Source: a virus. From it: a DNA stretch of 62,651 nucleotides. The first letter of the stretch is position 1, and the number at the start of each line of letters is the position of its first letter. The translations under genes and the position numbers were made by a program. Location of the stretch: the IMG/VR virus record IMGVR_UViG_3300027816_002956, positions 1 through 62,651 of that record, one strand, 5' to 3'. Under the pieces are notes generated by a model. It saw nothing but the letters and a program-made list of their open reading frames with translations. It had not been told where the DNA came from and ran no database searches. Below are positions 24,968 through 47,290 of the stretch, in pieces.

Positions 24968-27900
24968 ATGACTATTCCTATCATAACAAGAACGAATACC
25001 ATTGATGAATGGCGAATTCAAACAAATTTGTCAGCTATAGAATTAAATAATTTAAAAGCTAACAATTATACAAAATCAAATGGTACTTTAGAATTAGCTA
25101 ACAACTCTGTACTTTTAATAAGTGCAAACGGTACCGCACTCCAAGTTTCAAATAGTGCTTTTATCGGTAGAAATTTAGCAGTAACAAATAACGTTTCTGT
25201 TGGTGCAGTTGGTTCTGGTGTTGGTAATGTCTCTATAGGTAACTCTGTTTTGATTGCTGGACCCGGAGAAGCAGTTAACGTTTCAAATAGTGTTTATGTT
25301 GGTGGCAATAGCAATGTTAGAGGCAACGTGTATGCGAACAATGCAGTTGTCAATAATTCTGTTTATGTTGGTGGTACTGCAAACATTGCTGGTATTGTTA
25401 CACTATCAGGAACAGGTAAAGTATTGGAAGCAAATACTGGAACTGTATATGTTAATAATGCATATCTAACTACTGCAACACTAGATCAAGCAAACGTTGA
25501 ATTGATCTATGCTCTTGAAGCTAAAATTGACAACCTTTCTGATATTGCTTCTGCTGTAATTGGTATTTTGCGTGTAACAACAGGTAATATTTATTATCTA
25601 ACATCGAACACTTTATATGCTAATACTGGAACGATCAGAGATTTTGTTGCAAACAGCACAGGTAATGTAGTAACACTTATATCAAATGTTGCAACAATTA
25701 ATACCGCAACTATTGGTAACTTAAACGCAACAAATGGTACGATTATCAATGGTAATGTAGTAACACTTATATCAAACAATGCTACTTTAAATACATCTAC
25801 TTTAGTTAATATAACAGTAACTAACGCTGCAATTGCAAATGCCGTTATTTCTTCGGCTGCAATTACGACTGGTCAAATTACAAATGGTACAATTACAAAT
25901 GGTACTATCATTAATGGTAATATAGTTACTTTAATTTCAAATAGTGCAACACTTAATAATTCTACATTGTTAAGTTCAAATGTTGTTTCTGCAAATATTA
26001 TAAATGCTAATGTTTCTGGTAATGTAAACTTTACCAATGGATCAACATTAAGATTTAATTCTGGATCAGCAAATGATGCTCTTGTTGTAGATTCAGGTAT
26101 AACTTCTTTACAGACTGTCGTTGTTGAAGGAAACTTAACTGTTGCAGGATCATTTACTCAAACAGGTAATATTAATTTTGAAACAGATAGATTCATTTTC
26201 AATGCAAATACACCTGATAATAAAGATGCTCTTATAATAAACCGTAGAGTTGCTGGAAATAATGCTCAAATTATTTGGAATGAAACAAATGATCGTTGGG
26301 AAGTTTCAACAGGTAATACTTGGACAACAACTTATAAGATTTTAGATGGCGCAGACATTTATACAGGTGTTGATTCTGATAGTACAACACTTGTAGCTTC
26401 TGCGAGTGCTGTTAAATTTGCATATCAAGCTGGTGGTGTTGTAGCCGGTGGCTATGCTAATGCAGCTTATAGACATGCCAATTCTGCATTTGTAAGTCAA
26501 AATACAACAGGTGTTTATGCCAATACTGGATATGCTCATGCAAATTCAGCACATGATGTGGCAAATTCTGCTTTTAGTGGAGTAAGTGGTACACATGCAA
26601 ATGCGGCCTACAGACATGCAAATTCATCTTATGCACATGCAAATACGGCTAATGTATCTGCTCAAGCTGCCTTTGATGCGGCTAACAATGCTTTTGCAGC
26701 TGGTGGTCAATTTGCTTATAGACATGCTAATTCAGCACACGATATTGCAAACTCAGCTTTTGCTGGAACAACAGGTACTCATGCCAACTCAGCATATTTT
26801 ACTGCAAATACCGCTTTAACAAATGCTGAAATTGCTGACCAAAAAGCTGTAGCAGCTAATACTAGAGCCGCTTTAGCTAACGTTCATGCAAATGCCGCAT
26901 ATAATTTTTCAAACACAATAAACAACTTTGCTTTTCATGCTTATACTCATGCTAATGCAGCGTTTGCTCGAGCAAATACAGGAATTACATCTACTGGAGG
27001 TACTATAACAGGTGATTTAACAGTTAATGGAACATTGAATGCTACTGGAGCTTCAATTTTTGCAAATGATATGAAAATTGCAGATGGAATTATAACACTT
27101 AATTCTGACATATTACAAACTGCATCACCAATTGAAAATGCTGGATTAGAAATAGATCGAGGCGCTTCACCTAATGTATTCTTTTTATGGGATGAAACTT
27201 CCGATAGGTGGAGATTTACAAATGATGGTACAAATTATCAAGACGTTGCAGGTCAAACAACAATTAATTCATCTTTAGCCGCATATGTACCTTTAGCAGG
27301 TGGAACCATGACTGGTTTCTTGACTCTGAGTGCAAGTCCATCAAGTGCGATGCATGCTGCTACAAAAGCTTATGTTGATGCTACAATAGGATCAGCAGAC
27401 CTAACAAATTTAAATGCTTCAAATTTAACAAGTGGTACTGTTCCAGTTGCTCGCTTGAGTGGATTATATAATATCAATGTTAATGGTAATGCTAACTATG
27501 CAACAACAGCTGGATCTGCCACAAGTGCAACGACCGCTAGCACCGCTTCCAGTTTAAATGGTGGTAATATTCAAAACTGTACTGGTTTCGCACAAAGTAG
27601 TGGAGCATTTTCAATGACCGGAAGTTCTTTCGGTGTAAATCCCTATGCACAATTTTATGGAGGCATAAGATCTTTTGCTGATATAAATGCATCTGGAGCA
27701 AATATAACAGCAAGTACTTTTTATGGTAATTTAAGTGGAACAGCAACACGAGCTCTTTATGGTGACTTGGCAGAAAAGTATCTAGCTGACGGCGAATACG
27801 ATGAAGGTACCGTAATGGCCATAGGCGGCGAAAAAGAAATAACAGCAGCAACAATTGCCAACTTTAGAGCTCTAGGTGTAGTATCATTGAGACCTGCACA

Positions 27901-28111
27901 CTTAATGAATGCTGATTTGGAAAACGGAACAATTGTTGCTTTAAAAGGTAGAGTTCCTGTAAAAGTTATAGGCAAAGTAATCAAAGGTCAACCTTTAGGA
28001 TTAAGTAACATAGCAGGAGTAGCAAGTGTTAATGAAATGAATTACTTTGCATTATCTCTGATAGATAAGAACGATGATGGTGAAGGTATAGTCGAAGCAG
28101 TTATTTTATAA
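24968..28111 (+). CDS. Tail fibre with Asn/Ala heptads and a DLAEKY-type tip domain
   Basis: The 1047-residue protein opens with TRTNTIDEWRIQTNLSAIEL, a virion-attachment segment common in marine T4-type fibres. A region of repeated NGTITNG/NVVTLISN strands (about 60-360) looks like a beta-helix. Modules of the type GNLTVAGSFTQTGNINFETD with DALIINRRVAGNNAQIIWNE follow, as well as heptads (about 490-680) and a second module (NGTLNATGASIF, WDETSDRWRFTND). The C-terminus has YGDLAEKYLADGEYDEGTVM and resembles the Peptidase_G2-like tip domains of phage fibres. It lies directly before the radical SAM cassette. Confidence 0.8.
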   Translation: MTIPIITRTNTIDEWRIQTNLSAIELNNLKANNYTKSNGTLELANNSVLLISANGTALQVSNSAFIGRNLAVTNNVSVGAVGSGVGNVSIGNSVLIAGPGEAVNVSNSVYVGGNSNVRGNVYANNAVVNNSVYVGGTANIAGIVTLSGTGKVLEANTGTVYVNNAYLTTATLDQANVELIYALEAKIDNLSDIASAVIGILRVTTGNIYYLTSNTLYANTGTIRDFVANSTGNVVTLISNVATINTATIGNLNATNGTIINGNVVTLISNNATLNTSTLVNITVTNAAIANAVISSAAITTGQITNGTITNGTIINGNIVTLISNSATLNNSTLLSSNVVSANIINANVSGNVNFTNGSTLRFNSGSANDALVVDSGITSLQTVVVEGNLTVAGSFTQTGNINFETDRFIFNANTPDNKDALIINRRVAGNNAQIIWNETNDRWEVSTGNTWTTTYKILDGADIYTGVDSDSTTLVASASAVKFAYQAGGVVAGGYANAAYRHANSAFVSQNTTGVYANTGYAHANSAHDVANSAFSGVSGTHANAAYRHANSSYAHANTANVSAQAAFDAANNAFAAGGQFAYRHANSAHDIANSAFAGTTGTHANSAYFTANTALTNAEIADQKAVAANTRAALANVHANAAYNFSNTINNFAFHAYTHANAAFARANTGITSTGGTITGDLTVNGTLNATGASIFANDMKIADGIITLNSDILQTASPIENAGLEIDRGASPNVFFLWDETSDRWRFTNDGTNYQDVAGQTTINSSLAAYVPLAGGTMTGFLTLSASPSSAMHAATKAYVDATIGSADLTNLNASNLTSGTVPVARLSGLYNINVNGNANYATTAGSATSATTASTASSLNGGNIQNCTGFAQSSGAFSMTGSSFGVNPYAQFYGGIRSFADINASGANITASTFYGNLSGTATRALYGDLAEKYLADGEYDEGTVMAIGGEKEITAATIANFRALGVVSLRPAHLMNADLENGTIVALKGRVPVKVIGKVIKGQPLGLSNIAGVASVNEMNYFALSLIDKNDDGEGIVEAVIL

Positions 28112-28130: not shown

Positions 28131-29555
28131 ATGAATCAGCCTTTAAATTTTTATGCAAAAAAATCTATGAAAGGAAATCCTCATGTTTTTGATGATTACT
28201 TTCAATTGAGTGCTTTAACAATTACTGTAACGAGCGCATGTAATTTACATTGCGATTATTGTTTTGAAGAACATGAAAGTAGGTTAATAAAACCCGATGA
28301 AGTAGTTGACATTATTGATGTTGCATATAAGAATTTTAGAAAAAATAATCCTACTGGTTCAATGCCATTATCTTTTTTTGGTGGTGAACCTTTTATCGCA
28401 TGGAAAACTATTCAAAGATGTATTGAACACGCTAAAGAAAAAGGTTATGATCTTTCTGTTGGCATAACAACAAACTTAACTTTGTTGACTGATGAACAAA
28501 TGGAGTTCATTGATGAGAATGATATTGGTTTGTTAGTTTCAATAGACGGCACCAAAGAAGTTCATGATAGATTACGTGATAATTCTTATGATGTTGTTTC
28601 TAAAAATGTCAAAAAACTAATAGACAATGGCATGAAAAGGTTAATAGAAGCTCGGATGACAGTTCCGCCAGGTGAATTTCATAATCTTTTAGCTGGAGTT
28701 CAAAACATTTTTTCTTTAGGTGTTGATAACATTGCTCCTGTTCCTGTTACCGATCAAGTTTGGACTAAAGATCAAGTTAAATTATTAGAAAATGAACTTG
28801 ATAAATTGTATGAATGGACAATTTCAATATACGAAGATCCAAACAATAAAAGAAACATTAGTGTGAAAATGATTGATGATTATTTGTTTCAATGCATACA
28901 TGACGAATTTGATATGAAAGGTACACCTTGTAGTTTTGGAAGTAATAAATGGCTGAGTATAGGTCCTAGTGGTGAAATGTATCCATGTCACCAAATACAT
29001 ACACGAAAAGATCAACAAGAATTGTTTTACATGGGAAATATTTTAAAAGGTGAAATACTTCCACATAGAATTTTAGGTCAGGTTTTGCCACATTCATGGA
29101 AAAAAGCTGACGATCCAGAATATACATGCGACACATGTGAGGCATATAATATTTGTAGAGGTTCTTGCCCAAGTGAAAACTATGATTTAAATAAAGATTA
29201 TTTAAAAACTCCAGATGAATGGTGTGATTGGGTTAGAATGTCAAAACGAATCACGAAAAAATACCAGAATCAACTTTTAAATAGTAAAAATTTGAGAAAT
29301 AAAAGATTAAATTCTATAAAACTAAATTTAGAGATTATGGAAATGATTGATAGGGTGAGAGAATATAATGTATACTCCCGAGAATTTCCTCTTGTTGTTC
29401 TTGATTTATATGAAAAAGTTTTAAGTTGTGAACATAATTTGTTACCTGGTTTTTCTGACTTATCAAAAAATAAATTAGCAAAATTTAGAGAACAACTAAC
29501 ACAAATTAGAGATGAATTAATTAAAAAAGAATCAATGCAAAAGGAAACAGTTTAA
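28131..29555 (+). CDS. Radical SAM/SPASM protein 1
   Basis: The 474-residue protein carries an intact radical SAM motif CNLHCDYC (Cys 37, 41, 44), which holds the [4Fe-4S] cluster that cleaves S-adenosylmethionine, and FFGGEP near residue 82-87. A SPASM-type C-terminal Cys array follows: GTPCSFGSNKWLSIG, MYPCHQ, then CDTCEAYNICRGSCP and a final Cys near residue 367, which would bind auxiliary clusters. SPASM enzymes modify peptides or proteins, for example in sactipeptide, quinone-cofactor or sulfatase maturation. About 90 residues after the SPASM part form extra helices. The start follows AGGAAAAAAA. The stop overlaps the start of the Cys-tailed protein gene (TAATG). Confidence 0.9.
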   Translation: MNQPLNFYAKKSMKGNPHVFDDYFQLSALTITVTSACNLHCDYCFEEHESRLIKPDEVVDIIDVAYKNFRKNNPTGSMPLSFFGGEPFIAWKTIQRCIEHAKEKGYDLSVGITTNLTLLTDEQMEFIDENDIGLLVSIDGTKEVHDRLRDNSYDVVSKNVKKLIDNGMKRLIEARMTVPPGEFHNLLAGVQNIFSLGVDNIAPVPVTDQVWTKDQVKLLENELDKLYEWTISIYEDPNNKRNISVKMIDDYLFQCIHDEFDMKGTPCSFGSNKWLSIGPSGEMYPCHQIHTRKDQQELFYMGNILKGEILPHRILGQVLPHSWKKADDPEYTCDTCEAYNICRGSCPSENYDLNKDYLKTPDEWCDWVRMSKRITKKYQNQLLNSKNLRNKRLNSIKLNLEIMEMIDRVREYNVYSREFPLVVLDLYEKVLSCEHNLLPGFSDLSKNKLAKFREQLTQIRDELIKKESMQKETV

Positions 29556-30154
29556 TGGGTACCTCTGTACATCAATCACAAAATACGATCATCGAAAACG
29601 ATGATTATAATCCAAATACTGAAAATGATGCTTGGAATATTCGAAGAAGATATGTTGGATTAGCTGCCATTTGGAGTAATCCAAACGCTGGAGATACTGG
29701 TTGTGCTAGAACGCAAACATATAGTACGTCCATAAGAGTTAGAAAATTTTCAGATGCTGGAAGACCTTATAGTGATGGTACTATTCTTGGTCTTACTGTA
29801 AGACAGCCTGTAGACAATCAAGAAATTTTAGCTACAGATTTAGATAATGCAAGACGAATTATCAATGAAGGTGTTGCAGCTGTAAATCAATCTTTTTTAA
29901 ATTCAACAACTGGATTTATTAATCCAGCTTCTGGGTATGCAAGTCGAGATCAAGAAATTTTAGCTTCACACATCAATAATTTAATTAATACTATTATAAT
30001 CACAGAAACTAAGTTAGACATATACAATTCATATTATGATGGAGCTGACTTATGTCAAAGAAGTTGCCAAATACAATGTCAGACAGCATGCCAAACAAGT
30101 TGTCAAGGATGTAATACTTCACAATGCCACAATCAAAAATGTGGAGTGCATTGA
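29555..30154 (+). CDS. Protein with eight-cysteine C-terminal tail, candidate radical SAM substrate
   Basis: The 199-residue product has a folded-looking body (about 25-165) and a C-terminal tail with Cys at 167, 171, 175, 179, 183, 186, 191 and 196, i.e. four CxxxC steps followed by CxxC and two CxxxxC. One further Cys lies at 50. The body has two related segments, NQEILATDLDNARRIINEG near 88 and RDQEILASHINNLINTI near 131. I infer a substrate role because it lies between two radical SAM genes, overlaps the first by one base and is followed by the second after one base. The tail resembles Cys-rich RiPP cores, but the large body is unlike a short leader. It could instead be a virion protein or bind metal. 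Confidence 0.75.
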   Translation: MGTSVHQSQNTIIENDDYNPNTENDAWNIRRRYVGLAAIWSNPNAGDTGCARTQTYSTSIRVRKFSDAGRPYSDGTILGLTVRQPVDNQEILATDLDNARRIINEGVAAVNQSFLNSTTGFINPASGYASRDQEILASHINNLINTIIITETKLDIYNSYYDGADLCQRSCQIQCQTACQTSCQGCNTSQCHNQKCGVH

Positions 30155-30155
30155 T

Positions 30156-31481
30156 ATGTTTGATGTAATTTCCAAAGTAACATTAAAACTCAGCACATAT
30201 TGTAATTTAGCTTGTGAGTATTGTCATCAAATGACTGATGATAAAAAACATCATGTTACTTTTGAAAAATATAAAGAAATGTATGACTTTTTACTAAAGA
30301 CAAATTTGTCTGATGTTGTTGAAGTAACTTTAACTGGTGGAGAAATTTCCCTTTTAGAAGAAGAATATGAAACAGCTGTAAAATGGTTCAGAAAGATTGA
30401 AAGACAGAGAGATGTAAAGTTTACTTTTGCTGTTGTTTCAAATGGTACAAATATAAAACAATTATTTAAATTAATAAAACAAGGTGATTTAAATCCTAAA
30501 AGAACAACAATTAGTTGGGATGGATTATACACCATGTCAAAGAGTCGTAAAAGTAAATTTGAAAAATTCAATGATGATTTCTTTAAAAATGTTGTTACTG
30601 AAATTGGCCAAAGTCCATGGGCAAAGCAATTAAACATTACACATGCAATAACACCTACTACCATCCCTTATTTACACGATAGTTTAGTTTTTGCTTTAGA
30701 TGCTGGTGTAAAAAATTTTGGTTTTTATTATATACATGAAGCCGATTATAGCGACAAAGAATTTTTAAAAATTTATGATGAACAAGTTACAAAATTAGGT
30801 GAAGAATTTGTAAAACGATATGAAGATTTGTCAACAAGATTTGTTTATTATAATTGGCAATTATTATATGCTAAAGAAAATTTGCCAACAGATAACAAAG
30901 AATTAATGAGAGCCACAACTCTTTGTCACAAATTAGGAAGAACGGTGCATTTTGACCCATTAGGTGACATTTATGGTTGTATTTATTTTGGAGACCATAG
31001 AGCTCTAAAACTAGGTGATTTGGAAAATGGTAATATAGATAAAACGAAATATCAAAAATTTAGTGATCAATACTTCGAAATGCCAGGTTGCAAATTAGAT
31101 AGTTGTGGCAATTCACATTGTTTTGAATGTCCAGCAAGTAACTATGTACATAAAGGAAAAATGGCGAATAGATTTAGTAACACATGCGAAATGTTATCTA
31201 TTGAAAAAAGAATTTACTATGATTTAAAACCTAAACTTAAAATAGATGAATTTGATAAAGCTTTTTATTGGATGGAAGAAGATCATTTAGAACAAAAAAA
31301 CTATGATGATAAGTATGAAACATATTTAAATGATATAGTAGGTATACCTTTAACTGAGGAAGCTTATGTTGAAGATGATGAGTACTCAAATAGATTAAGT
31401 CCAACGTATAAAAATGTTGTTACTTGGATGAAAAAAACTCCTAAGAAAAAAGAATTTACTCTAAATTTAGAAACCATATGA
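30156..31481 (+). CDS. Radical SAM/SPASM protein 2
   Basis: The 441-residue protein has CNLACEYC at Cys 16, 20 and 23 and TLTGGEISLL near residue 58, so the glycine-rich motif is GGE-I rather than GGEP. The C-terminal Cys array includes TTLCHKLG, IYGCIYFGD, MPGCKLDSCGNSHCFECPAS and NTCEM, consistent with SPASM clusters. I chose the ATG at 30156, which has GGAG at 30143-30146; an in-frame upstream extension would cover the Cys tail of the preceding gene in another frame and looks accidental. It lies one base after the stop of the Cys-tailed gene and overlaps the next start by ATGA. Confidence 0.88.
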   Translation: MFDVISKVTLKLSTYCNLACEYCHQMTDDKKHHVTFEKYKEMYDFLLKTNLSDVVEVTLTGGEISLLEEEYETAVKWFRKIERQRDVKFTFAVVSNGTNIKQLFKLIKQGDLNPKRTTISWDGLYTMSKSRKSKFEKFNDDFFKNVVTEIGQSPWAKQLNITHAITPTTIPYLHDSLVFALDAGVKNFGFYYIHEADYSDKEFLKIYDEQVTKLGEEFVKRYEDLSTRFVYYNWQLLYAKENLPTDNKELMRATTLCHKLGRTVHFDPLGDIYGCIYFGDHRALKLGDLENGNIDKTKYQKFSDQYFEMPGCKLDSCGNSHCFECPASNYVHKGKMANRFSNTCEMLSIEKRIYYDLKPKLKIDEFDKAFYWMEEDHLEQKNYDDKYETYLNDIVGIPLTEEAYVEDDEYSNRLSPTYKNVVTWMKKTPKKKEFTLNLETI

Positions 31482-32767
31482 AAAAGAAGTTTTCAAAAAT
31501 AGGTTCTAATATCAATCATGTTTATCTTATGATGACAGAGGCTTGTCCTTTAGATTGTGAATACTGTTACATAAAAGATAGAAAAACAAAAAACAATGTA
31601 AGTGATGAAGATATTGATACTTTAATAAATGCTTTTGAGTATCATACTCCTAGAATAATTTATTTTGGTGGAGAACCTTTACTCGAAGTTGAACATATAA
31701 AAAGAGTTACTGAAAGATGGAAACATAGGTGTCAGTTTCAAGTTATAACTTCTGGATTAGTAAACTTCGATAAATTTGTTGATGAAGTTTATTTACCTAA
31801 TAAAGAAAAATTTGATATTCAAATATCTTGGGATGGTTTCGAAAATGACAACCGAGTTTTAAGAAATGGTAAAAATAAACAAGATAGAGTTATGGCCACC
31901 ATATTAAGTACCTTAGAAATGGGTATACCTCTACAAGTAAGAAGTGTTATAAATGACGAAAATGTTGATAATCTCGTTAAGATTTATGAGACCTATAGAT
32001 ATTTAAAACTTCAGTATCCACATTTGACGGGTGATATAACTATTGCTCATCAAAAACATTTCAAAGATGATTTTCCAGAAAAGTTTAGGCAACAATTTAA
32101 AACAACACTTGAAATAATTGAAGATGATATTAATAATGGTATAGAGCCTTATTTTCCATTAGAGTACATGAAAAAAATGACTAGTGCGTTAAATGGAAGA
32201 CATGTTAGTTCGTGTGATGCTGGAAATTATTTGGTTTTAAAACCAAGTGGCGCACTATATCCTTGTACAATATTAAGTCAACAAAATGATGATGTTGATT
32301 TTATCATGGGTCATATTTCTGATAGAGACTTAGATTATGATATGATGGATAAAATGCGAAAGCCAAGTGAAGCTGAAATTTGCAAAACTTGTGGAGTTAG
32401 ATCTGTATGTGATGGTGGTTGTCGATATGAAAGAGTTGCAAATTATGGTAAAGATTGGATGGGAAAAGTTTGTGGTTTTACCTGTGGTGTTTCTGAAGCC
32501 TGGTTTCATGAAACAAAAAATTGGGTTTTAAACATGAATGAAAATGTTTATGAAAAAGTAATTCAGAGATTGGTATTATTTAATAATTGGGTTATTCATT
32601 ATGATACTGGTCACCATGACGAAGCAAAAAAACACCAGACTTTTGATAGAGAACAATTGAAATTAGGTAAAAGATTAGATTTTTATAATTTTTATAAAGA
32701 CACTACTGAGAAAAAGATTATACCTATTTTGCCATTGAGTAAAGAAAAAAATGTCTTTGTCACCTAA
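31478..32767 (+). CDS. Radical SAM/SPASM protein 3
   Basis: The 429-residue protein has TEACPLDCEYCYIK with Cys 23, 27 and 30, and YFGGEPLLEV near residue 66. Its SPASM-type array includes VSSCDAGNYLVLKPSGALYP, then CTILSQQ, CKTCGVRSVCDGGCRYER and CGFTCGV. SWDG in the barrel fits the family. All cluster ligands expected for a SAM cluster and auxiliary clusters appear present. The start is the ATG in the ATGA overlap with protein 2; the stop overlaps the start of protein 4 by 17 bases. Substrate is unknown; the preceding Cys-tailed protein is a candidate. Confidence 0.9.
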   Translation: MKKKFSKIGSNINHVYLMMTEACPLDCEYCYIKDRKTKNNVSDEDIDTLINAFEYHTPRIIYFGGEPLLEVEHIKRVTERWKHRCQFQVITSGLVNFDKFVDEVYLPNKEKFDIQISWDGFENDNRVLRNGKNKQDRVMATILSTLEMGIPLQVRSVINDENVDNLVKIYETYRYLKLQYPHLTGDITIAHQKHFKDDFPEKFRQQFKTTLEIIEDDINNGIEPYFPLEYMKKMTSALNGRHVSSCDAGNYLVLKPSGALYPCTILSQQNDDVDFIMGHISDRDLDYDMMDKMRKPSEAEICKTCGVRSVCDGGCRYERVANYGKDWMGKVCGFTCGVSEAWFHETKNWVLNMNENVYEKVIQRLVLFNNWVIHYDTGHHDEAKKHQTFDREQLKLGKRLDFYNFYKDTTEKKIIPILPLSKEKNVFVT

Positions 32768-33983
32768 TTTTAAAAAATCTGTTGATGGTATCGCTAAAGT
32801 AGGTAGACAAAATAAAAGATTTGAAATATTTTTAAATCTTACCTATAAATGCCCTTTGAGATGTACTTATTGTTATGTGGATTACAATAGGGCTCCTCCA
32901 ATGACACAAGAGCAGGTTGATTATGTCATTGAAAAACTTCTCATTGAACCTAAAAAAACTGATATAAAGCTTGTCACCTTTTTTGGAGGTGAACCTGCTT
33001 TAGAGATGGACATCATAGAAAATACCTTAGACAAATATTCTCATGTTGAGAAAATAAAAAATGTTCATTTTGGAATCATAACAAGTTTTTCTGTCAATCA
33101 AGATAGACTTTTAAAGTTACAAAAAAAATATCCAAAATTAGAAATAGCTATAAGTTTTGATGTTGATATGAAAGAAAGAGTCTTTATCAATAAAAAACAA
33201 TTTGATTTATTAGGTGTGGCTAAGAAAAAATTTGATATTGATTTAGAAAAGATGAAAGAAAATAAAAATAATATTTTCTTTAATAAAGTTATTACAGGGC
33301 AAGAAACAGATTTATTTGGTGATTTGAAATGGCTTCACGATACTTATAGGGACTATAAATTATTTTATAGTTTATCGTTTACGAAAACGCCTAAGTTTCC
33401 TTTTCATCCAGAAGGAAGAATAGAGGAAGGTTGGTATAAATATTTAAACTATATTTTTTCTAAGTATTTAACTAATGAAGTAGTATTTTTACCTATGTTA
33501 GTTTTACAATACTTAGATCGTTATTGGAAACAAAAAAAGAACACAGCCACTTCTGGTTGTGGTTTGGGTGGTGAATATTTTATTGATAGTAATGGGACAG
33601 TTAGTCCATGCAGTATAAGTCATCATAGAACAGATTTAATGCTTTATCATGAAGGAAAGTTTCTCGACAATAATGAACACTTTCAAGAATTAGAAGATAG
33701 TTATTGGAACAATCCTACATGTCAGAAGTGTGAATATAAAGGTTTTTGTCCTGGCGGTTGCATGGTTTTTAGGTATACTGAAAATAACGATTACAATATA
33801 CCAAATGAGGGCCAATGTATTTTGATGGAAGAAATTTTTAAGGCCTATGACAGATTTTTAAATGAACGTACAGAAAAAGAAATAACTGAGTTAACTTTTA
33901 TTCTAGCAAAAGATTTACAGAAATATCATTCGTATTGTCATCATGATGATGAACATATAGATTTACAAGCAATTTATAACTAA
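32751..33983 (+). CDS. Radical SAM/SPASM protein 4
   Basis: The 410-residue protein has CPLRCTYC with Cys 34, 38 and 41 and TFFGGEPALEM near residue 82. The C-terminal array has TSGCGLGGEYFIDSNGTVSP, CSISHHR, CQKCEYKGFCPGGCMVF and GQCILM, typical of SPASM. It differs substantially from the other three, so the set looks like four specialised enzymes rather than recent duplicates. The start lies inside the end of protein 3 (17-base overlap). It is followed after 11 bases by two unknown paralogous genes. Confidence 0.9.
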   Translation: MSLSPNFKKSVDGIAKVGRQNKRFEIFLNLTYKCPLRCTYCYVDYNRAPPMTQEQVDYVIEKLLIEPKKTDIKLVTFFGGEPALEMDIIENTLDKYSHVEKIKNVHFGIITSFSVNQDRLLKLQKKYPKLEIAISFDVDMKERVFINKKQFDLLGVAKKKFDIDLEKMKENKNNIFFNKVITGQETDLFGDLKWLHDTYRDYKLFYSLSFTKTPKFPFHPEGRIEEGWYKYLNYIFSKYLTNEVVFLPMLVLQYLDRYWKQKKNTATSGCGLGGEYFIDSNGTVSPCSISHHRTDLMLYHEGKFLDNNEHFQELEDSYWNNPTCQKCEYKGFCPGGCMVFRYTENNDYNIPNEGQCILMEEIFKAYDRFLNERTEKEITELTFILAKDLQKYHSYCHHDDEHIDLQAIYN

Positions 33984-33994
33984 GTGAGAACATT

Positions 33995-35146
33995 ATGCAC
34001 ATTTTTTTACCTGAATTAATATACAATGAAATAAAAGAAAATGATAAATTTAAATCTATTTACAATTCTTTAAATGATTTTTTTGATACAAAAACTAAGT
34101 GTTTAATTGATTACAATAATGAAATCAATAATGATGATTATTATAAAGATTTGAATGATTTTTTAAAGAAAAATTTATCAGAAAAAAATAATAAAATATG
34201 GAATTGTTTTAAAGTCTGTGTAGATTTTGATGAAAAAGATAGTAATAAAGATTGGGAAAAAATTAGAGAAGTAATTGATTCGTGCAAAAAAGACGATGAT
34301 TTAGAAGTAAAATTGTATGCGTACTATATGGAAATGGCAAATACTGCTGATCATGAATCTGAAAAATGGATAGAAAATGTTGAAGAATCTTTAAAATTGT
34401 TCGATCAAAATAAAGATAAAGTTTTTGATACAAGATTGTATACAAAATTTTATTGGGATGTACACGAAAAAAATAATTTTTATTTAAAAAATAAAAAAGA
34501 AAAAGATTTAATTGATGAATTTAAAAATTATCAAAAATTAGATTTAGAAACTAAAGATTTTATATTTTCAAAACATAATGATACATACACTAAAGATATA
34601 ATTAACCATAAAACAATATATACTGCAATTCAATTCTGGCATGCAAATTTAAATTCGGCGGAAAACGATCAAAAAAGTGCTGAATATGTTCTAAAAAAAT
34701 TAGATGATAAAATTGCAAATTTAGATTTCAAATATAATTCTTTTAACATGCATTTAATGGAATGGCTATGGTTAAATTTTAAATGGCATTTAGATAGAGA
34801 TAATATTCTAGCGGTTGATGTGGTAGAAATTATGATACAAATTGTTGAAGAAACATTAAAAAATAAAAATTACATGATAAGATCTTTACGTCATCATAAT
34901 TTTAATTATATTTCTAATTTTTTAATTTTAATGCAAAATTTAAATGAAGTTGAAAAAATCTTTGAAAAAGTGTTAGTAAACTATGAAAGAAAATTAAACA
35001 AATTAAATTGGACAGAAAAAGAATATAAAGTTATTATTGATAATGATCTATCAATTACTAATAACTGGTGGAACGAAAGAAGTAGAACACTCAACAATTA
35101 CAAAGAAAATATGATTTCTTCTATAAAAAATAAATTTTTAGGATAA
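33995..35146 (+). CDS. Unknown protein A of a tandem paralogous pair in the radical SAM cassette
   Basis: The 383-residue protein is rich in Lys, Asn, Asp and Glu and looks mostly helical. I do not recognise a family. It shares with the next gene an N-terminal FLPELIYNEIKENDKF (next gene [16 protein letters not shown]), a middle DFKYNSFNMHLMEWLWLNFK (next: [20 protein letters not shown]) and a similar C-terminal region ending in KNKFLG/KNRFYG. No Cys cluster or membrane segment is obvious. Location between radical SAM enzymes and an Fe-S carrier suggests a helper or recognition role, which is only inference. The gene is visibly more AT-rich than its surroundings. Confidence 0.8.
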   Translation: MHIFLPELIYNEIKENDKFKSIYNSLNDFFDTKTKCLIDYNNEINNDDYYKDLNDFLKKNLSEKNNKIWNCFKVCVDFDEKDSNKDWEKIREVIDSCKKDDDLEVKLYAYYMEMANTADHESEKWIENVEESLKLFDQNKDKVFDTRLYTKFYWDVHEKNNFYLKNKKEKDLIDEFKNYQKLDLETKDFIFSKHNDTYTKDIINHKTIYTAIQFWHANLNSAENDQKSAEYVLKKLDDKIANLDFKYNSFNMHLMEWLWLNFKWHLDRDNILAVDVVEIMIQIVEETLKNKNYMIRSLRHHNFNYISNFLILMQNLNEVEKIFEKVLVNYERKLNKLNWTEKEYKVIIDNDLSITNNWWNERSRTLNNYKENMISSIKNKFLG

Positions 35147-35149
35147 AAA

Positions 35150-36355
35150 ATGTTAGTTTGGCTACCAGAAAATATCTATCAATTAGTAAAAAATAATTCT
35201 GAATATATTTCAATAATTGAAGAATTAGAAAAAGTTTCTTTTGACGGAGAACTTTCTTCTACTGTACCTGAAAATACTCCAGAAACATGGCCTATCTATA
35301 GAAAATTATATTCATTTTTAAATTCTGTTGAGAAAAATGAGTACGAACAGATTACTTGGGAGTTGAATAAAATTCTATTTGATAAGTTGTTTCTCGAAAT
35401 AGATAATGAAAATTTTTCATATACAGACAAATTATTATCTTTAAAAGATACCTTAGTAAACATAAAAAATAAAATAGATTCTTTAGATGATTCTGTTATA
35501 AAAAACCTTCTAAAAATTAATTTTTTACAATATGAAATTTTAGCTTTGTCTGAAAATAATAGTTTTTTTTCTGCTGATTTGATTGCAAAAAGGCAAGAAT
35601 TGTTATCAACATTTGATTCGATTAAAAAAGAAAATGTGACTTATGATTCTGTAATAGATTATTTTGAAAATTATTTTAATCTATACATGGTAAATTTAAT
35701 AAAAAATGAAAGTTTGGTGGTAAAATCTTTTAATGATTTACAATTAAATTTTAATAAATTTAGAATGGATCTTGATTTAAAAATTGATGAAGTAAAAAAT
35801 TCATCAATTGAACACAACTACTTTAAACTTTTTGATGTTCTAAATTATTTAAAATTGTACTTTATAAACTTTTATTATGAAAGTTTTATACCAATGGTTA
35901 ATTTAACTGATGATGAAAAATTGATAATTGACAAAAATATTGTAAAATATGCAAAGAGTGTAGATTTTAAATACAAAAATTTCAATATTATTACCTTACA
36001 TTTTTATTGGATAAGAATGAAAATGTTTTTTTCATTTAAAGACTATGATCAGTTTTTAAAAGTTTTTAATGAAATGTGTCTATATTTAAAGTTAAATTTA
36101 GATAATAATAAAAAAGATGTGATTAAATCTATAATTTTTCATACGCAATCTGACCACATAGATTTTTTAATTTTGATCAAAGTTTTATTAGAATTAGATG
36201 AGGAAATGAGTAAATTTTTTAAACAAGAAAAACAATTAGAAAATTTAAATTTATCTGAAAAAGATATTACTTTGATAAATGCAAATAATGATAACTATAA
36301 AAATTCATCTTACTTTTTTGATATTAATTTCATAAAGAATAGGTTCTATGGATAA
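35150..36355 (+). CDS. Unknown protein B of a tandem paralogous pair
   Basis: The 401-residue protein is a divergent paralogue of the one encoded immediately upstream; three shared segments align in order at the start, at about residues 275-300 and at the end. The rest is too different for simple recent duplication. It is helical and has few cysteines. It starts three bases after the stop of protein A, and its own end overlaps the start of the Fe-S carrier gene by eight bases, which ties the pair to the Fe-S enzymes. Function unknown. Confidence 0.8.
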
Positions 36356-36683
36356 TTCTCAAATTACGATAACAGATAATGCTGCCTTTAAAATTGCAGA
36401 AATTATAAAAGATTCTGAAGCTGAAGGTCAATTTATTAGAACTTTTGTTCAAGGAGGCGGTTGTTCTGGTTTTCAGTATGGTTTTACTTTTGAAAATGAA
36501 ATAAATGATGATGATTTTGTGGTTGAAAAAAATGACATAAAATTACTCGTTGATAGTATGAGTATGACATATTTAACTGGTGCAAAAATAGATTACAAAG
36601 AAGATTTAAATGGATCACAATTTGTCATTGAAAATCCTAACGCTCAGTCCACATGCGGTTGTGGGAGTAGTTTCTCAGTTTAA
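36348..36683 (+). CDS. A-type iron-sulfur carrier (IscA/ErpA/HesB family)
   Basis: The 111-residue protein has the complete A-type carrier signature: [11 protein letters not shown] with Cys 39 and the C-terminal STCGCGSSF with Cys 103 and 105. These three Cys bind an Fe-S cluster and hand it to target enzymes. Length matches the bacterial family. The gene overlaps the preceding paralogue gene by eight bases and closes the cassette that holds four radical SAM proteins, each likely to need several [4Fe-4S] clusters, so it probably supports their maturation during infection. HesB-like genes are known from some marine T4-type phages. Confidence 0.93.
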
Positions 36684-37066: not shown

Positions 37067-37267
37067 ATGGCTATCACAGTACAAGTAAAACCTAGAAAAA
37101 CTACTATATCTTCTGTAACTGTTGCAAGAACAGCTAACCTCAATCTTGCACAAATTAATAATGTTGATATTATTACGCCTGCAAATAATCAAGTTTTGAT
37201 GTATGAGACTGGTACTGAACGTTGGGTAAATAAAGAAATTCCAACAATTAGTGGCGGTACATTCTAA
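37067..37267 (+). CDS. Small fibre-associated protein
   Basis: The 66-residue product begins MAITVQVKPRKTTISSVTVA and has the segment NNQVLMYETGTERWVNKEI, a phrase often found in the N-terminal part of phage fibres. It may be a detached N-terminal fibre module. The stop overlaps the start of the following fibre gene by one base (TAATG). A related MAITVQ opening occurs in the gene at 45013. Confidence 0.6.
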   Translation: MAITVQVKPRKTTISSVTVARTANLNLAQINNVDIITPANNQVLMYETGTERWVNKEIPTISGGTF

Positions 37268-40200
37268 TGACAATAATTCAGATAAAGTATTCAACAGCGA
37301 ATACTGAACCAGCTAATGGACAACTATCTGCTGGAGAATTAGCTTACTCTGAAGTATCTAAAAAATTATTTATTGGTAATGATTTTGGTACTGCCAATGT
37401 TATTGGTGGCCAAAAATATATTGACCTTCTTGAATCAAATACTTCTTTTGCATCACCTGGTGCAATTGTAATTCGTGATTCTCAAGGTTCTTTTTTTGGA
37501 AATGTAATTACAGCCAATTCTTTTGTTGGTAATCTTGCTGGAAATTTAGATGGTAATGCTGCAACAGCTTCACGACTAGCAAATAACTTTACAATTACAT
37601 TGACTGGTAATGCAAACGGTAATGTAAGTCTCGATGGTTCTTCAAATGTAACTTTAAATGTTACACTTGTAAATACATCGGTTACAAGTGGTTCATACGG
37701 CAATACAAGATTTATTCCTACATTTACTGTTGGATCAGATGGTCGTATTACAGGCGTAACAAATGTCGCTATAGACTTTCCAGATTCAGCCGACTTTTCT
37801 CAAGATTCTTATAATCAAGCAAACTCTGCATATGCACATGCTAATGCAGCTTATCAAACTGCTAACACAGCAATTTACTCTAATGCACATTCTAATGCAT
37901 CATTTAATGTAGCAAATTTAGCTTTAACTACTGCAAATTCAGCATCTTCATATGCAAATAGTGGTTTTGCGGTAGCTAATGTTGCAAATATTAACGCAAT
38001 TTCGGCATCATCTTATGCCAATTCAGCATATCAAACAGCCAATTCTGCAAGTTCGTATGCAAATAGTGCCTTTATGGCCGCAAATACAGGATTATTATCA
38101 TTCAATACTGCAAATGCGGCTTTTAATACTGCAAATACAGCATTAACTACTTCTATTAATACTGCTTTATTGTTAGTAGAAATATTTGCTAATGTCACTT
38201 CGACCGAAGAATCTATTGCAACAGCTGGCAGATATGCTAATTCAGCTTATCGACATGCAAATGCTTCATTTAATACGGCAAATACTAAGTTTAATACTTC
38301 TGGTGGTACAATTTCAGGTGATGTTAATGTTACTGGTAATCTTACAGTTACAGGAAATGTAACTTATGTAGCAACAAATCAATTGAATTTAGGTGATGCA
38401 GTTATAACTTTAAATGCAGATTTAGGACAAGCTGCTTTACCAACAGAAGATGCTGGTATAGAAATAGAACGTGGTAGGTATCAAAATTCTTCCATACTTT
38501 GGAACGAAACTTTAGACCGGTGGCAGTTTACTGATAATGTTTCAACAAGTAACATAGGTTCGGCTGCGGCTGAAGTCTATGCTAATGCGGCTTATGATGC
38601 CGCCAATGCTGCATATGCTTTTGCTGGTCAAGCGACTATTGCTGTTTCAGGTTCAGCTTTAGCTGCTAACGCTGCGGGGTCATATGCTAATGCGGCATTT
38701 TTAAGAGCCAACGCTGCATTTAGTGGTACAACTGGAACACATTCTAATTCTGCATATGCTCATGCTAATGCAGCTTTTGCGGCGGCAAATTCTGCAACAC
38801 CTCAAGCCGTTCAATCAGCTTTTGATAAAGCCAATTCTGCTTTTGATGCTGCAAATAATGCTTTTATTGCAGGTGGTCAAATTGCAGGATCATATGCTAA
38901 CTCAGCATACATTCAAGCCAATGCTGCTTTTAATCGTGCTAATTCTGCCAATAACTTAGTATTAGAAACCAGAACACATGCTAATTCTGCATTTAGTGAA
39001 GCAAATAATGCTACGTTGATTGGTCTTGCTGCTTTTGCTCTTGCAAATAGTATTCAGTTTTCTCAAGGTACTGAAATTGCAACATATGCTTGGGTCAATA
39101 GTAATGCAGCTTATAATCATGCAAACGGAGCTTTTGTACAAGCTAATACCGCTAATGTACAATCTGTAGTATCGGGAATATATGCTAATGCCGCATTTGC
39201 TTTAGCTAATACAAAGTTTAATAACTCTGGTGGTACGATCTCTGGTGATGTGGTTGTTTCAGGTAATTTACGTGTAGATGGAGATAGAGCACAATTTTTC
39301 GTTTCTTCTATTTCCATTGAAGATAACTTAATTGATATTGCAACAGATCAAACTGGCGCACCATCATTAAATTCAGGCATTCGAGTTATTCGTGGTGATG
39401 AATCGCCAGTTTTATTACGTTGGAATGAATCCAACGATTATTGGCAGTTTACAAATGATGGTATATCATATTCAAATATAGGTTCTTATGCAGCCGAATC
39501 GTATGCCAACTCTGCATTTGGTGTTGCAAATACCGCCAATGCACATTCAATCTCTGCATTTAGTTTAGCAAATACAGTAAATGCAATCGCACAGGCCGCA
39601 TATGATACTGCTAACAACGCTGGTAGTAGTGCAATCTTACAAGCAGCTTTTAATACTGCTAACTCTGCTGGTTCATATGCAAATGGAGCTTTTGGTGCCG
39701 CAAATTCTGCTGGATCATTTGCAAACTCCGCACTAGGTGCCGCAACTACCGCAGATCAACGTGCTGTAACTGCTGGTGTATTTGCTAATGCTGCATTTGA
39801 AATTGCTAATGTTTCAAACGAAAAAGCTGCATCAGGTTATAGACACGCAAACGCATCTTTCAATTGGGCAAATTCTGCTTACAATGCAGCCAATTCTAAA
39901 CTTGATTTAAGTGGTGGTACTCTGACAGGACCATTGACTGTACAGGGTGGTGTGACCATCGTTGGTGGTTTACTGTATGCAAATTCAAGTACTGTAATTC
40001 TTGCAGACAATATCATAACTCTTAACGCTGCAATTGATCAGGCATCAGCACCTGCATTTAATGCTGGTATTGAAGTTGATCGTGGTACTTCAGATAATGT
40101 TGCTTTTATTTGGAATGAATCTGATGATCATTGGCAGTTTACAAATGATGGTACAAATTATATAAATGTCGCTTCTGAGGCTGCTGAATTCTATGCTAAC

Positions 40201-41019
40201 TCTGCATTTTCAAAAGGAAATGCTGCAGCTTCACACGCAACATCCGCATACGATCAGGCAAACTTATCAACAACCATAGTTCAATCGGCTTTCAATAAAG
40301 CAAACACAGGTAATATAACCGCTCAAGCTGCTTTCGATAGAGCAAATTCTGCATATGATTTGGCAAATGGAAAAAGTACCTTCTACTTCAGTTCATTCCC
40401 ACCAGGTAGTGCCAATGAAGGTGACCGTTGGATTGATGCTGATTTAGGACAAGAATTTATCTATGTGAACGATGGTGATTCTCTGCAATGGATTGAACTA
40501 TCAGCCTTTGTTGATCAGAATTTAGTAGATGATAACATTTACTATGTTTTAGGAAGTGATGATGCTGGTAGTGATTTGAATACCGTACAAAGTATTTTCG
40601 GTGTTGCTGTCAATCTGGCTGCTAATACGGTATATGAATTTGAAGCATCATTCGCACTAAAGAAAACTGGTGGTACTAATTCACACAGTTTAGGTCTTGG
40701 TTTTGCAGGTTCTATTGGTGTAAATCATATACTATATCATGTAACTCATACAAGTTCTGCATTGAATAGTCCATCAACACCAACCTTAATTATGATAAAT
40801 ACCGTATCAAACACGACAGTTTCATCGAATACCAATGTGGATAACCACAATGTGTTCTTGAAAGGAATGATTTCTGTTGGATCCGCAGGTAGTTTTGTGC
40901 CGCAATATAGATTATCGGATGCACCTGGCGCCGCATTTAGCACTTTGGCTGGATCATATTTTAAAATGGAACCAGTAGGTTCATCTAATACAAACATAAA
41001 CGTAGGATCTTGGTCTTAA
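37267..41019 (+). CDS. Very long tail fibre with Asn/Ala heptads (1250 residues)
   Basis: The N-terminus (IQIKYSTANTEPANGQLSAG, ELAYSEVSKKLFIGN) is a common virion-anchor segment of marine phage fibres. Ala/Asn heptads occupy residues about 180-350, 440-660 and 740-890. Three beta modules of the GGTISGDVNVTGNLTVTGNV kind interrupt them, each followed by an IEIERG/IRVIRGDE segment and a WNE-DRWQFT box. The C-terminal 230 residues (GSANEGDRWIDADLGQEFIY, then a beta-rich domain) probably form the receptor-facing head. The heptads fit a trimeric coiled coil. Confidence 0.85.
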   Translation: MTIIQIKYSTANTEPANGQLSAGELAYSEVSKKLFIGNDFGTANVIGGQKYIDLLESNTSFASPGAIVIRDSQGSFFGNVITANSFVGNLAGNLDGNAATASRLANNFTITLTGNANGNVSLDGSSNVTLNVTLVNTSVTSGSYGNTRFIPTFTVGSDGRITGVTNVAIDFPDSADFSQDSYNQANSAYAHANAAYQTANTAIYSNAHSNASFNVANLALTTANSASSYANSGFAVANVANINAISASSYANSAYQTANSASSYANSAFMAANTGLLSFNTANAAFNTANTALTTSINTALLLVEIFANVTSTEESIATAGRYANSAYRHANASFNTANTKFNTSGGTISGDVNVTGNLTVTGNVTYVATNQLNLGDAVITLNADLGQAALPTEDAGIEIERGRYQNSSILWNETLDRWQFTDNVSTSNIGSAAAEVYANAAYDAANAAYAFAGQATIAVSGSALAANAAGSYANAAFLRANAAFSGTTGTHSNSAYAHANAAFAAANSATPQAVQSAFDKANSAFDAANNAFIAGGQIAGSYANSAYIQANAAFNRANSANNLVLETRTHANSAFSEANNATLIGLAAFALANSIQFSQGTEIATYAWVNSNAAYNHANGAFVQANTANVQSVVSGIYANAAFALANTKFNNSGGTISGDVVVSGNLRVDGDRAQFFVSSISIEDNLIDIATDQTGAPSLNSGIRVIRGDESPVLLRWNESNDYWQFTNDGISYSNIGSYAAESYANSAFGVANTANAHSISAFSLANTVNAIAQAAYDTANNAGSSAILQAAFNTANSAGSYANGAFGAANSAGSFANSALGAATTADQRAVTAGVFANAAFEIANVSNEKAASGYRHANASFNWANSAYNAANSKLDLSGGTLTGPLTVQGGVTIVGGLLYANSSTVILADNIITLNAAIDQASAPAFNAGIEVDRGTSDNVAFIWNESDDHWQFTNDGTNYINVASEAAEFYANSAFSKGNAAASHATSAYDQANLSTTIVQSAFNKANTGNITAQAAFDRANSAYDLANGKSTFYFSSFPPGSANEGDRWIDADLGQEFIYVNDGDSLQWIELSAFVDQNLVDDNIYYVLGSDDAGSDLNTVQSIFGVAVNLAANTVYEFEASFALKKTGGTNSHSLGLGFAGSIGVNHILYHVTHTSSALNSPSTPTLIMINTVSNTTVSSNTNVDNHNVFLKGMISVGSAGSFVPQYRLSDAPGAAFSTLAGSYFKMEPVGSSNTNINVGSWS
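37800..40350 (+). repeat. Heptad-coding repeat blocks in the 1250-residue fibre
   Basis: Units such as SYANSAF, HANAAFN and AANSA occur dozens of times in three blocks, separated by two beta modules. The same DNA words recur in six other fibre genes of this window. Confidence 0.85.
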
Positions 41020-41036
41020 AATAACGAGAGAAAAAT

Positions 41037-42959
41037 ATGCCAACAATTAATTTTCCAACCGGTCCAACCCTAAATGACGAATATTCCTTCGGTGGTAAAA
41101 CGTGGAAGTATAACGGTACTGCATGGGAATTAATTTCTACCGGTGTAACCTCAACAATACGACTACATGCAAATGCAGCCTTTGAAGCGGCCAATACCGC
41201 AGATCAAAAAGGAGTAAGTGCAGGTAGTTACGCAAATAGTGCCTTTACTAAGGCCAATAGTGCAACTACTTTAGCGCAAGCTGCGTTTGATGCAGCTAAC
41301 GTTGGTGCGAGTGTCGTTGCAGCTGCGGCTTTTAATGCGGCAAATTTAGCTTCTTCTAATGCGGCTAGTGCTAGTTCATATGCAAATAGTGCTTTCTTAG
41401 CCGCAAATACAGCCGATCAAAGAGCAGTAACTTCTGGATCATACGCTAATTCAGCATTTGGTGTTGCCAACTCAGCATCTTCATATGCAAATGGTGCCTT
41501 TGCAGCTGCCAATACAGCTGATCAAAGAGCAGTAACTTCTGGTGACTATGCTAACTCAGCTTTTGGTGTTGCCAACTCAGCATCTTCATACGCCAATGGT
41601 GCCTTTGCAGCTGCTAATACCGCAGACCAAAGAGCAGTAACATCAGGTACATATGCCAATGCGGCCTTTGCTGCTGCCAATACAGCAGATCAGAAAGCAA
41701 CTTCAGCGGGATCATATGCTAATGGTGCTTTTGCTGAAGCCAATCTTAAATTTAATACTTCTGGTGGTACAATCTCTGGTGATGTAACGATTACTGGTAA
41801 CTTAACAGTTGAAGGCAATACTTTAATTGTTAATGTATCTACATTGGCTGTTGAAGATTCATTAATTCAATTAGCTCGCAATAACATTTCTGATGCAGTA
41901 GACATTGGTTTCTTAGGCCACTATGATGCTGGTTCTGGTAATGTTCATGCTGGTCTTATTCGCCGAGCAGCTGACGATAAATTCTATCTCTTTGAAAATT
42001 TACCAACAGAAACATTAACAAATGTTGTTGATGTTGCTAATGCTTCAATTGCAACAATTTATGCAAATGTAATTGCAACATCTATTTTATTAAGAGATAA
42101 TGATCCATTAACACAAGCAAACGCCGCTTTTGCAGCTGCCAATGTTGCTGATCAAAGAGCAGTTACATCTGGATCATATGCGAATAGTGCCTATGCAGCT
42201 GCTAATACCGCAGATGAGAAAGCAACTTCGGCAGGATCATATGCTAATGGTGCTTTCTTAGCGGCTAATACCGCAGACCAAAGAGCAGTAACATCAGGTA
42301 CATATGCCAATGCATCCTTTGATGTTGCTAATTCGGCGTCTAGTTATGCTAACGGTGCATTTTCAGCTGCTAATACAGCTGATCAACGAGCAGTAACATC
42401 AGGTACATATGCTAACTCAGCATTTTCTGCGGCTAATTCTGCCAGCTCATATGCAAATGGAGCGTTTCTCGCTGCTAATACCGCAGACCAAAGAGCGGTA
42501 ACTTCAGGTGATTATGCAAATTCTGCTTACGCATGGGCAAATGCGGCTTACAATGCTGCGAATAATGCGTTTACTGCTGGTGGCACAATCGCAGGTTCTT
42601 ATGCTAACTCTGCGTTTATTAAGGCCAACTCTGCATTTGATGCTGCAAACTCTGCTGCTTCTAATGCTGCAAGTGCTTCAAGTTATGCTAATGGTGCCTT
42701 TGCAGCCGCTAATACTGCTGACCAACGTGCAGTAACAAGTGGAACATATGCTAATGCTGCATATCAAACTGCCAATTCAGCATCTTCATATGCTAACGGT
42801 GCTTTTGCATCTGCTAATAGTAAAGTTAGATTCTACTACCAAGATACTCCGCCAAGTGGAGTTAACGCAGGAGATCAATGGTATGAATCTGATTCAGCAA
42901 TTTTATTCACTTACATAAATGATGGTGATACTTCGCAATGGGTACAAGTTAGTCTGTAA
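41037..42959 (+). CDS. Tail fibre, Asn/Ala heptads, INFPTGP N-terminus
   Basis: The 640-residue protein opens with INFPTGPTLNDEYSFGGKTW and KYNGTAWELIS, a module shared with the next gene and present in many phage fibres. Heptads (SYANGAF, AAANTAD, QRAVTSG, i.e. 21-residue units) occupy about 40-235 and 355-600. The central beta module (about 240-350) has ISGDVTITGNLTVEGNTLIV and DIGFLGHYDAGSGNVHAGLI. The C-terminus ends in PSGVNAGDQWYESDSAILF. The start follows ACGAGAGAAAAAT. Confidence 0.83.
   Translation: MPTINFPTGPTLNDEYSFGGKTWKYNGTAWELISTGVTSTIRLHANAAFEAANTADQKGVSAGSYANSAFTKANSATTLAQAAFDAANVGASVVAAAAFNAANLASSNAASASSYANSAFLAANTADQRAVTSGSYANSAFGVANSASSYANGAFAAANTADQRAVTSGDYANSAFGVANSASSYANGAFAAANTADQRAVTSGTYANAAFAAANTADQKATSAGSYANGAFAEANLKFNTSGGTISGDVTITGNLTVEGNTLIVNVSTLAVEDSLIQLARNNISDAVDIGFLGHYDAGSGNVHAGLIRRAADDKFYLFENLPTETLTNVVDVANASIATIYANVIATSILLRDNDPLTQANAAFAAANVADQRAVTSGSYANSAYAAANTADEKATSAGSYANGAFLAANTADQRAVTSGTYANASFDVANSASSYANGAFSAANTADQRAVTSGTYANSAFSAANSASSYANGAFLAANTADQRAVTSGDYANSAYAWANAAYNAANNAFTAGGTIAGSYANSAFIKANSAFDAANSAASNAASASSYANGAFAAANTADQRAVTSGTYANAAYQTANSASSYANGAFASANSKVRFYYQDTPPSGVNAGDQWYESDSAILFTYINDGDTSQWVQVSL
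41160..42830 (+). repeat. 21-residue (63-base) heptad repeats in the 640-residue fibre
   Basis: The unit SYANGAF-AAANTAD-QRAVTSG recurs many times with near-identical DNA, on both sides of the central beta module (about 41750-42110). Confidence 0.85.
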
Positions 42960-42988
42960 CGGACTAATTGAAGGGTGTGTGTTAGATA

Positions 42989-45004: not shown

Positions 45005-45007
45005 ATA
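45000..45007 (+). promoter_or_regulatory. Perfect late-promoter-like TATAAATA
   Basis: TATAAATA overlaps the stop of the preceding fibre gene and is followed by GAACT and ATGGCT (45013). It equals the T4 late consensus. With the usual start point the mRNA would begin at about the ATG, and no Shine-Dalgarno sequence is present. Confidence 0.55.
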
Positions 45008-45012
45008 GAACT

Positions 45013-46941: not shown

Positions 46942-46944
46942 ATA
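46938..46944 (+). promoter_or_regulatory. Late-promoter-like CTAAATA
   Basis: CTAAATA overlaps the stop of the beta-helix gene and stands four bases before ATGGCA at 46949. Confidence 0.35.
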
Positions 46945-46948
46945 AAAA

Positions 46949-47290
46949 ATGGCACAAAATATTCCTTTAAATACTTTTAAAACCGTTGCATTACCGGTGA
47001 CAACAGTAGCAAATACTGTTTATACATGCCCAGCAGGTGTGACTACTGTTGTTCTTCTTGCTCAAGTTTCTAATATTAATACTTCAAGTACAGTAGATGT
47101 TACTGCTTCACATGTTAGAAATGGTAACACAACAAGATTAATTGCAAACACCGCAATACCTGTTGAGGATGCAGCATCGTTGCTGTTAGGTAAATTAGTT
47201 TTAGAAACAGGTGATGGATTTTCGATTTCAGCAAGTGCAAATGGAAGCGCAGAATTAGCATTATCAATACTAGAAACTTCAAATGGCTAA
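46949..47290 (+). CDS. Small beta-rich virion protein
   Basis: The 113-residue product (NTFKTVALPVTTVANTVYTC, PAGVTTVVLLAQVSNIN, GDGFSISASANGSAELALSI) has a pattern of beta strands found in small virion proteins of marine T4-type phages. It may form a collar or joint between fibres. The last codons overlap the start of the next fibre gene by eight bases. Confidence 0.65.
   Translation: MAQNIPLNTFKTVALPVTTVANTVYTCPAGVTTVVLLAQVSNINTSSTVDVTASHVRNGNTTRLIANTAIPVEDAASLLLGKLVLETGDGFSISASANGSAELALSILETSNG

Follow-up and report, generated by a model that had tools for sequence, protein, structure and literature searches.

We hypothesize that a virion protein of a T4-like phage carries a Cys tag which is cross-linked by adjacent radical-SAM maturases, probably via thioethers. 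Judged from sequence comparison, this overall explanation appears probable to us. The window, i.e. the whole stretch of DNA analysed here, is a virus record of 62,651 bases in which baseplate-wedge and long-tail-fibre families are matched. We read it as a fragment of a T4-like phage, with the operon of the Cys-tail gene located in the tail-fibre region.

The Cys-tail protein (29555..30154, plus strand), proposed as substrate on the grounds of its translation and tail homology, comprises 199 amino acids followed by a stop codon. It contains nine Cys at residues 50, 167, 171, 175, 179, 183, 186, 191 and 196, and the segment QEILA at residues 89 and 133. The Cys positions and the duplicated QEILA given in a preliminary description of this DNA are exact on re-translation. 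The conserved Cys tag (DLC-QRSC-QIQC-QTAC-QTSC-QGC-NTSQC-HNQKC-GVH; 30047..30151, plus strand) covers residues 165–199. When the residues of the protein were shuffled 200,000 times, a run of five Cys at spacing four came up three times, and no second run of this kind is present among the window ORFs of at least 50 amino acids. The gene is not a simple DNA repeat, because its Cys codons alternate between TGT and TGC. The body of the protein displays no match to any Pfam, PHROGs or NCBIfam family. Searches of these databases accordingly yielded no recognised virion or tail domain, and also no known non-substrate family of the kind that the preliminary description had named as a counter-argument. 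No match to the protein was obtained in the phage collection.

The Cys-tail gene is placed between r1 and r2, followed by r3, r4, u1, u2 and the gene of an ErpA-like protein, all on the plus strand. This operon encodes four radical-SAM enzymes, two accessory proteins and one ErpA-like Fe-S carrier, and the G+C content of the cluster is 27%, as compared to 34% in the window. The radical-SAM/SPASM enzyme r1 (28131..29555, 474 amino acids) displays the motif CNLHCDYC, a complete 7-Cys SPASM motif set and a Pfam Radical_SAM match (2.6e-17). Domain searches and motifs identify r2 (30156..31481, about 441 amino acids) as a radical-SAM enzyme, while r3 (31478..32767, 429 amino acids) and r4 (32751..33983, 410 amino acids) are radical-SAM/SPASM enzymes. 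The SPASM pattern CX3CX2C plus CX9-15GX4C...CX2CX5CX3C...C is complete in r1, r3 and r4 if the CX9-15 step is allowed as 9–16. In r2, CX3CX2C and the first auxiliary motif are present; its auxiliary-cluster motif deviates from CX2CX5CX3C, which is absent. The ATG at 30036, listed as start of r2 among the ORFs, was rejected, as it falls within the Cys-tail gene; a start at 30156, with GGAG about 10 bases upstream, is likely.

The accessory protein u1 (33995..35146, N-terminus MHIFLPELIY) is a paralogue of u2 (BLASTP 6e-5). The second accessory protein u2 (35150..36355) is predicted to be all-helical, and similar N-termini occur in three other clusters. Its structural model is helical throughout at low confidence (pLDDT 62.7) and has no significant fold match in the PDB. 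The A-type Fe-S carrier (36348..36683) reaches 165 bits against NF010147 at a cut-off of 117. This ErpA-like protein probably feeds Fe-S clusters to the radical-SAM enzymes.

Other parts of the window encode long proteins with ANAAF/ANSAY-type repeats (7741-10506, 24968-28111 and 37267-50486), which are likely tail fibres; tail PHROGs were obtained for two of the three searched. By eye, two proteins of the tail-gene region (50496-52223 and 57293-59005) display repeats of the type KTDGTLWSWGxNxxGQLGL, which resemble those of RCC1-like propellers. A protein of 589 amino acids (52282-54051), located among the tail-fibre genes and starting MKNIYFLAGLPRSGSTLLAAILNQNP, appears sulfotransferase-like at its start, again by eye.

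A scan for CxxxxCHNQxCG returned 11 matches, 7 of which are chance frames. Clusters with the CHNQxCG tail are found in the window, G033, L481 and L486, adding up to four clusters with five tails, and all of these Cys-array ORFs are flanked by radical-SAM genes; the preliminary description had considered tails lacking such neighbours as evidence against its proposal. The near-identical relative of the window was also matched. Single-protein scans with the Cys-tail protein, r1 and r3 retrieved a near-identical contig (IMGVR_UViG_3300008264_000842) as sole relative. Contig G006 was rejected as an independent case, being a mosaic relative of the window whose DNA is 78–89% and then 97% identical across the cluster.

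The tails share the pattern C-x3-C-x3-C-x3-C-x3-C-x2-C-x4-CHNQxCG and are 49–65% identical; in local alignments, the homology of the window tail amounts to 45–62%. All eight tail Cys are kept in 4 of the 5 tails, and the last two are missing from the tail of a protein of 521 amino acids. Since the tail and all eight of its Cys are kept in independent phages, the arrangement is beyond chance. Upstream of each tail, a helical-looking segment and an aromatic/Asn-Gly linker are discernible by eye. The carrier bodies of the four clusters are unrelated to one another.

Enzyme identity between the clusters amounts to 28–39% (r2 28–38% and r3 31–39% against the three other clusters). G033 encodes homologues of r1 (33%), r2 (31%) and r3 (31%), two u-type proteins and two Cys-tail proteins (203 and 521 amino acids); the same tail is thereby found on two different proteins of one phage. 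Each of the four clusters has a homologue of r1 directly 5′ of the Cys-tail gene or genes; that of L481 is truncated at the end of the locus. Homologues of r2, r3 and the u-proteins follow downstream, with varying order of r2 and r3 and varying position of the u-proteins, and alignment places homologues of u1 adjoining the related clusters. The doubled u gene is not common to all clusters, no dedicated counterpart of r4 was seen in the stretches examined of the three other clusters, and a search of the three other contigs revealed no ErpA gene. Conservation of the Cys spacing jointly with the neighbouring radical-SAM enzymes, a check proposed by the preliminary description, is observed across the four clusters. 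Because the same tail and the same enzymes recur with unrelated bodies, the tail amounts to a portable tag which travels with the enzymes.

An association between Cys arrays and radical-SAM genes, seen in both directions, holds for viral contigs at large. Viral contigs were scanned for C-Q/E-x-x repeats and sorted by the diversity of residues between the Cys. Most matches to the array pattern were simple DNA repeats or wrong frames; these were rejected and served as controls. A radical-SAM gene was present in 27 of 34 contigs with heterogeneous arrays versus 3 of 48 contigs with simple repeats or spurious matches (p 4e-12), where the counts are our own tally and some radical-SAM calls derive from our own HMM in place of Pfam. 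The radical-SAM gene was mostly nearby and on the same strand. The seven array contigs without a detected radical-SAM gene are mostly short fragments, one being 54 kb in length. In the reverse direction, loci were chosen only by the radical-SAM signature TxxCNLxCxYC[FY]. A Cys-array ORF was found in 33 of 119 such loci; 114 viral control loci, matched in summed length, contained one (p 4e-10). The controls were contigs with artefactual matches as opposed to random ones, and the loci are not all independent. Array flavours include CQxx, CSGx, CTGLC, CQTCDVC and CTCNCNYC. No single acceptor residue is apparent, because the flavours, such as CQxx, CSGx and CTCNCNYC, differ greatly in what separates the Cys.

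Several further loci were recorded in the course of these scans. The phage of L486 encodes a second, different Cys-array protein CSGNCTGTCQTGC and two more radical-SAM-like genes (L494 10410-10793, contig G048); the N-terminus KITYDELAPSLQNLINSKA of this protein recurs in other proteins of these phages. In L138 (4169-6706, 172-kb contig G003), a radical-SAM gene with an apparent intein (TIGR01445, 62.3 bits) is located 3′ of three Cys-array proteins. The gut contig MT837480 (L490 2222-2743 onward) encodes a Cys-array protein with a likely export signal and a radical-SAM enzyme, followed by genes that by eye resemble TatA and TatC; this array is probably of the bacterial CXXX-repeat kind. A Cys-array ORF together with a PapB-like radical-SAM gene is also found on a Bathyarchaeota MAG contig (L281 5108-8000).

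Tail domains are recognised in some of the array carriers: Tail_P2_I and TIGR02242 in L163, and Phage_Tail_Tip in L180. Tail PHROGs match the carriers of L163, L473 (the protein of 521 amino acids) and L475, and PHROG 6085, of unknown function, matches three carriers. Other carriers have no recognised domain. Carriers of more than 1,000 amino acids occur. The array of the L187 carrier scores 35.2 against TIGR04117 ("Cys-Xaa-Xaa-Xaa repeat radical SAM target"), under the cut-off of 50. The preliminary description had suggested a structural protein with a modifiable tail; this reading gains support from a tail that travels with the enzymes and from arrays of relatives that sit on proteins with phage-tail domains.

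Cys arrays are also encoded by cultured phages. Each of the nine sampled SPN3US-like jumbo phages (SPN3US, CR5, Phobos, Caitlin, phiEaH2, Huxley, Asesino, EarlPhillipIV, Wellington) contains two tandem Cys-array ORFs of 127–155 amino acids as listed (L346 3094-3898, with ORFs at 3094-3483 and 3497-3898; L341 3130-3953; and similar positions in L347–L353). Conserved ORFs and two radical-SAM genes come next, and a virion structural gene adjoins. Relatives of the Wellington radical-SAM enzyme occur in 66 records. According to the coordinates, several SPN3US-like records annotate the region of the array ORFs in a different frame or strand. Databases built from such records would lack the array proteins, and earlier mass spectrometry may have missed them. 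Campylobacter phage CP220 gp140 (L488 2134-3738, 534 amino acids) contains a CTCDCNYC-type array with 13 Cys within 30 residues; a radical-SAM gene is located about 2 kb away, and an RNA ligase/tail-fibre attachment gene adjoins.

PapB (NF047865), the ranthipeptide maturase of freyrasin, is the top NCBIfam family for r1, r2, r3 and r4, and for 8 of 9 further enzymes tested. r1 reaches 180.5 bits under the PapB cut-off of 340, and r2–r4 score lower. The next-best families for r1 are the QHNDH maturase, a ScfB-related family and the SCIFF maturase, all under their curated cut-offs; r1 scores 124.6 bits against the SCIFF maturase TIGR03974 (cut-off 425) and 84.3 bits against TIGR04115 (cut-off 350). 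The best solved relative of r1 by sequence is 5wgg_A (E 6e-25), which we take to be the SCIFF maturase CteB. By profile scores, the best-scoring families are thioether-forming maturases, namely PapB, SCIFF maturase and QHNDH maturase. The reaction is not readable from family membership, because the enzymes are below every equivalog cut-off.

The system resembles SCIFF in that Cys occur mostly at every fourth residue (CGECQTSCQSACKTSC in the SCIFF-type peptide of gut record MT835472, which adjoins a radical-SAM gene, and CQRSCQIQCQTACQTSC in the window tail), and in that a SPASM maturase adjoins the substrate gene. However, SCIFF is a free bacterial peptide of about 46 amino acids with six Cys, whereas the viral array is a C-terminal tag on proteins of 199–521 amino acids, accompanied by three or four enzymes of which none is above the SCIFF cut-off. 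The Cys-tail protein, with 199 amino acids and nine Cys, has no match to the SCIFF precursor in NCBIfam. CXXX-repeat radical-SAM targets (TIGR04115, TIGR04117, TIGR04119) share the Cys-x-x-x repeats beside a radical-SAM enzyme. These targets are bacterial as described, whereas the viral arrays are virus-encoded and in some cases located on tail proteins, and the window protein has no match to the models. The acceptor motif of PapA is CX3D, which is absent from the window tail. QhpD (TIGR03906) is a SPASM enzyme which cross-links Cys in a protein subunit and not in a small peptide. It provides a precedent for a protein-subunit substrate and is the second-best family for r1, but it is a single dedicated enzyme acting on a bacterial enzyme subunit, which is not viral and has no Cys array. 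By cut-offs, the Cys-tail system is placed outside the SCIFF, PapB and CXXX-repeat families, and would work like them if our inference is right. With regard to RiPPs in general, the putative substrate gene adjoins the enzymes, the tail is conserved and both are co-inherited, while a modification confined to the tail is proposed; the bodies are large. Our best reading, by analogy, is an equivalent of SCIFF/ranthipeptide and CXXX-repeat RiPPs that is borne by the virion.

Cys-rich tails can bind metal, and the preliminary description had offered a metal-binding or disulfide-linked tip as an alternative to a modified tail. In that case, the tail would form a metal- or Fe-S-binding or disulfide-linked tip, and the radical-SAM genes would act elsewhere, in host or nucleotide metabolism, merely sharing the operon. 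The Fe-S carrier gene within the operon is consistent with this, as are published papers that assign phage radical-SAM genes to Fe-S or host metabolism. However, the tail stays with its enzymes while the carrier bodies change, and the link between arrays and enzymes is general and two-way. Moreover, peptide maturases give the highest scores with the enzymes, and MoaA, QueE and NrdG types far lower ones. We therefore consider such a tip quite unlikely, and less likely than before this analysis.

The closest known enzymes make free peptides, and the SCIFF-type peptide of MT835472 likewise lies beside its radical-SAM gene. This may suggest a secreted or cytoplasmic RiPP-like effector, with a matured and perhaps cleaved tail that targets the host or competing phages in place of becoming part of the particle. 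Such an effector appears very unlikely to us, as no protease or exporter gene is seen in the window cluster, the large carriers include some with tail domains, and the arrays of SPN3US-like phages are located within virion gene blocks. A small but real chance is given to a tag modified by chemistry other than thioether formation, e.g. epimerisation, C-C cyclophanes, C-O links or Cys oxidation. Several of these reactions are known from the SPASM group, and this versatility together with equivalog cut-offs that are not reached leaves room for them. On the other hand, regularly spaced Cys prevail in the substrates, and the families with the best scores form thioethers.

Our preferred explanation, a virion-protein tag cross-linked by the adjacent maturases, may be outlined as follows. 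The Cys-tail protein would be a phage protein, most likely a component of the tail or tail fibre, with the last ~33 residues serving as a transferable Cys tag. The conserved core of r1, r2 and r3, and here also r4, would modify this tag either ahead of virion assembly or in the course of it. Most likely, thioethers would form that connect Cys sulfur to carbons of the adjacent backbone or side chains, and would stiffen the otherwise flexible tail into a stable tip. Substrate presentation may fall to the helical u1 and u2, and Fe-S loading of the enzymes to the ErpA-like protein. The tip might serve stability or receptor contact. That this represents a widespread class, with many unrelated tailed phages cross-linking Cys-array tags on their own tail proteins to form RiPP-like particle tips, seems to us about as probable as the opposite.

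Phage radical-SAM genes have been known since at least 2010, with guessed metabolic roles. For a Pseudomonas jumbo phage with six such genes, roles in DNA repair and host metabolism were proposed. In T4-like marine genomes, where up to 12 radical-SAM genes occur together with an A-type carrier, they were interpreted in terms of Fe-S metabolism (PMC5332604), and the 11–12 radical-SAM genes of Campylobacter phages CP220 and CPt10 as possible metabolic help at low oxygen (PMC2853527). These phages resemble the window in being T4-like and rich in radical-SAM genes, and the marine ones also in the A-type carrier. However, the sections of these two papers considered here propose metabolic roles and do not mention a Cys-array substrate. 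No description of Cys-array virion substrates of radical-SAM enzymes was found among titles and opening lines of abstracts in the open-access literature, and cross-linked Cys tails on phage virion proteins have apparently not been described before; their novelty seems likely. If our explanation is true, a Cys-array virion substrate would provide a common purpose for many phage radical-SAM genes, and radical-made cross-links would join the known routes of virus particle maturation.
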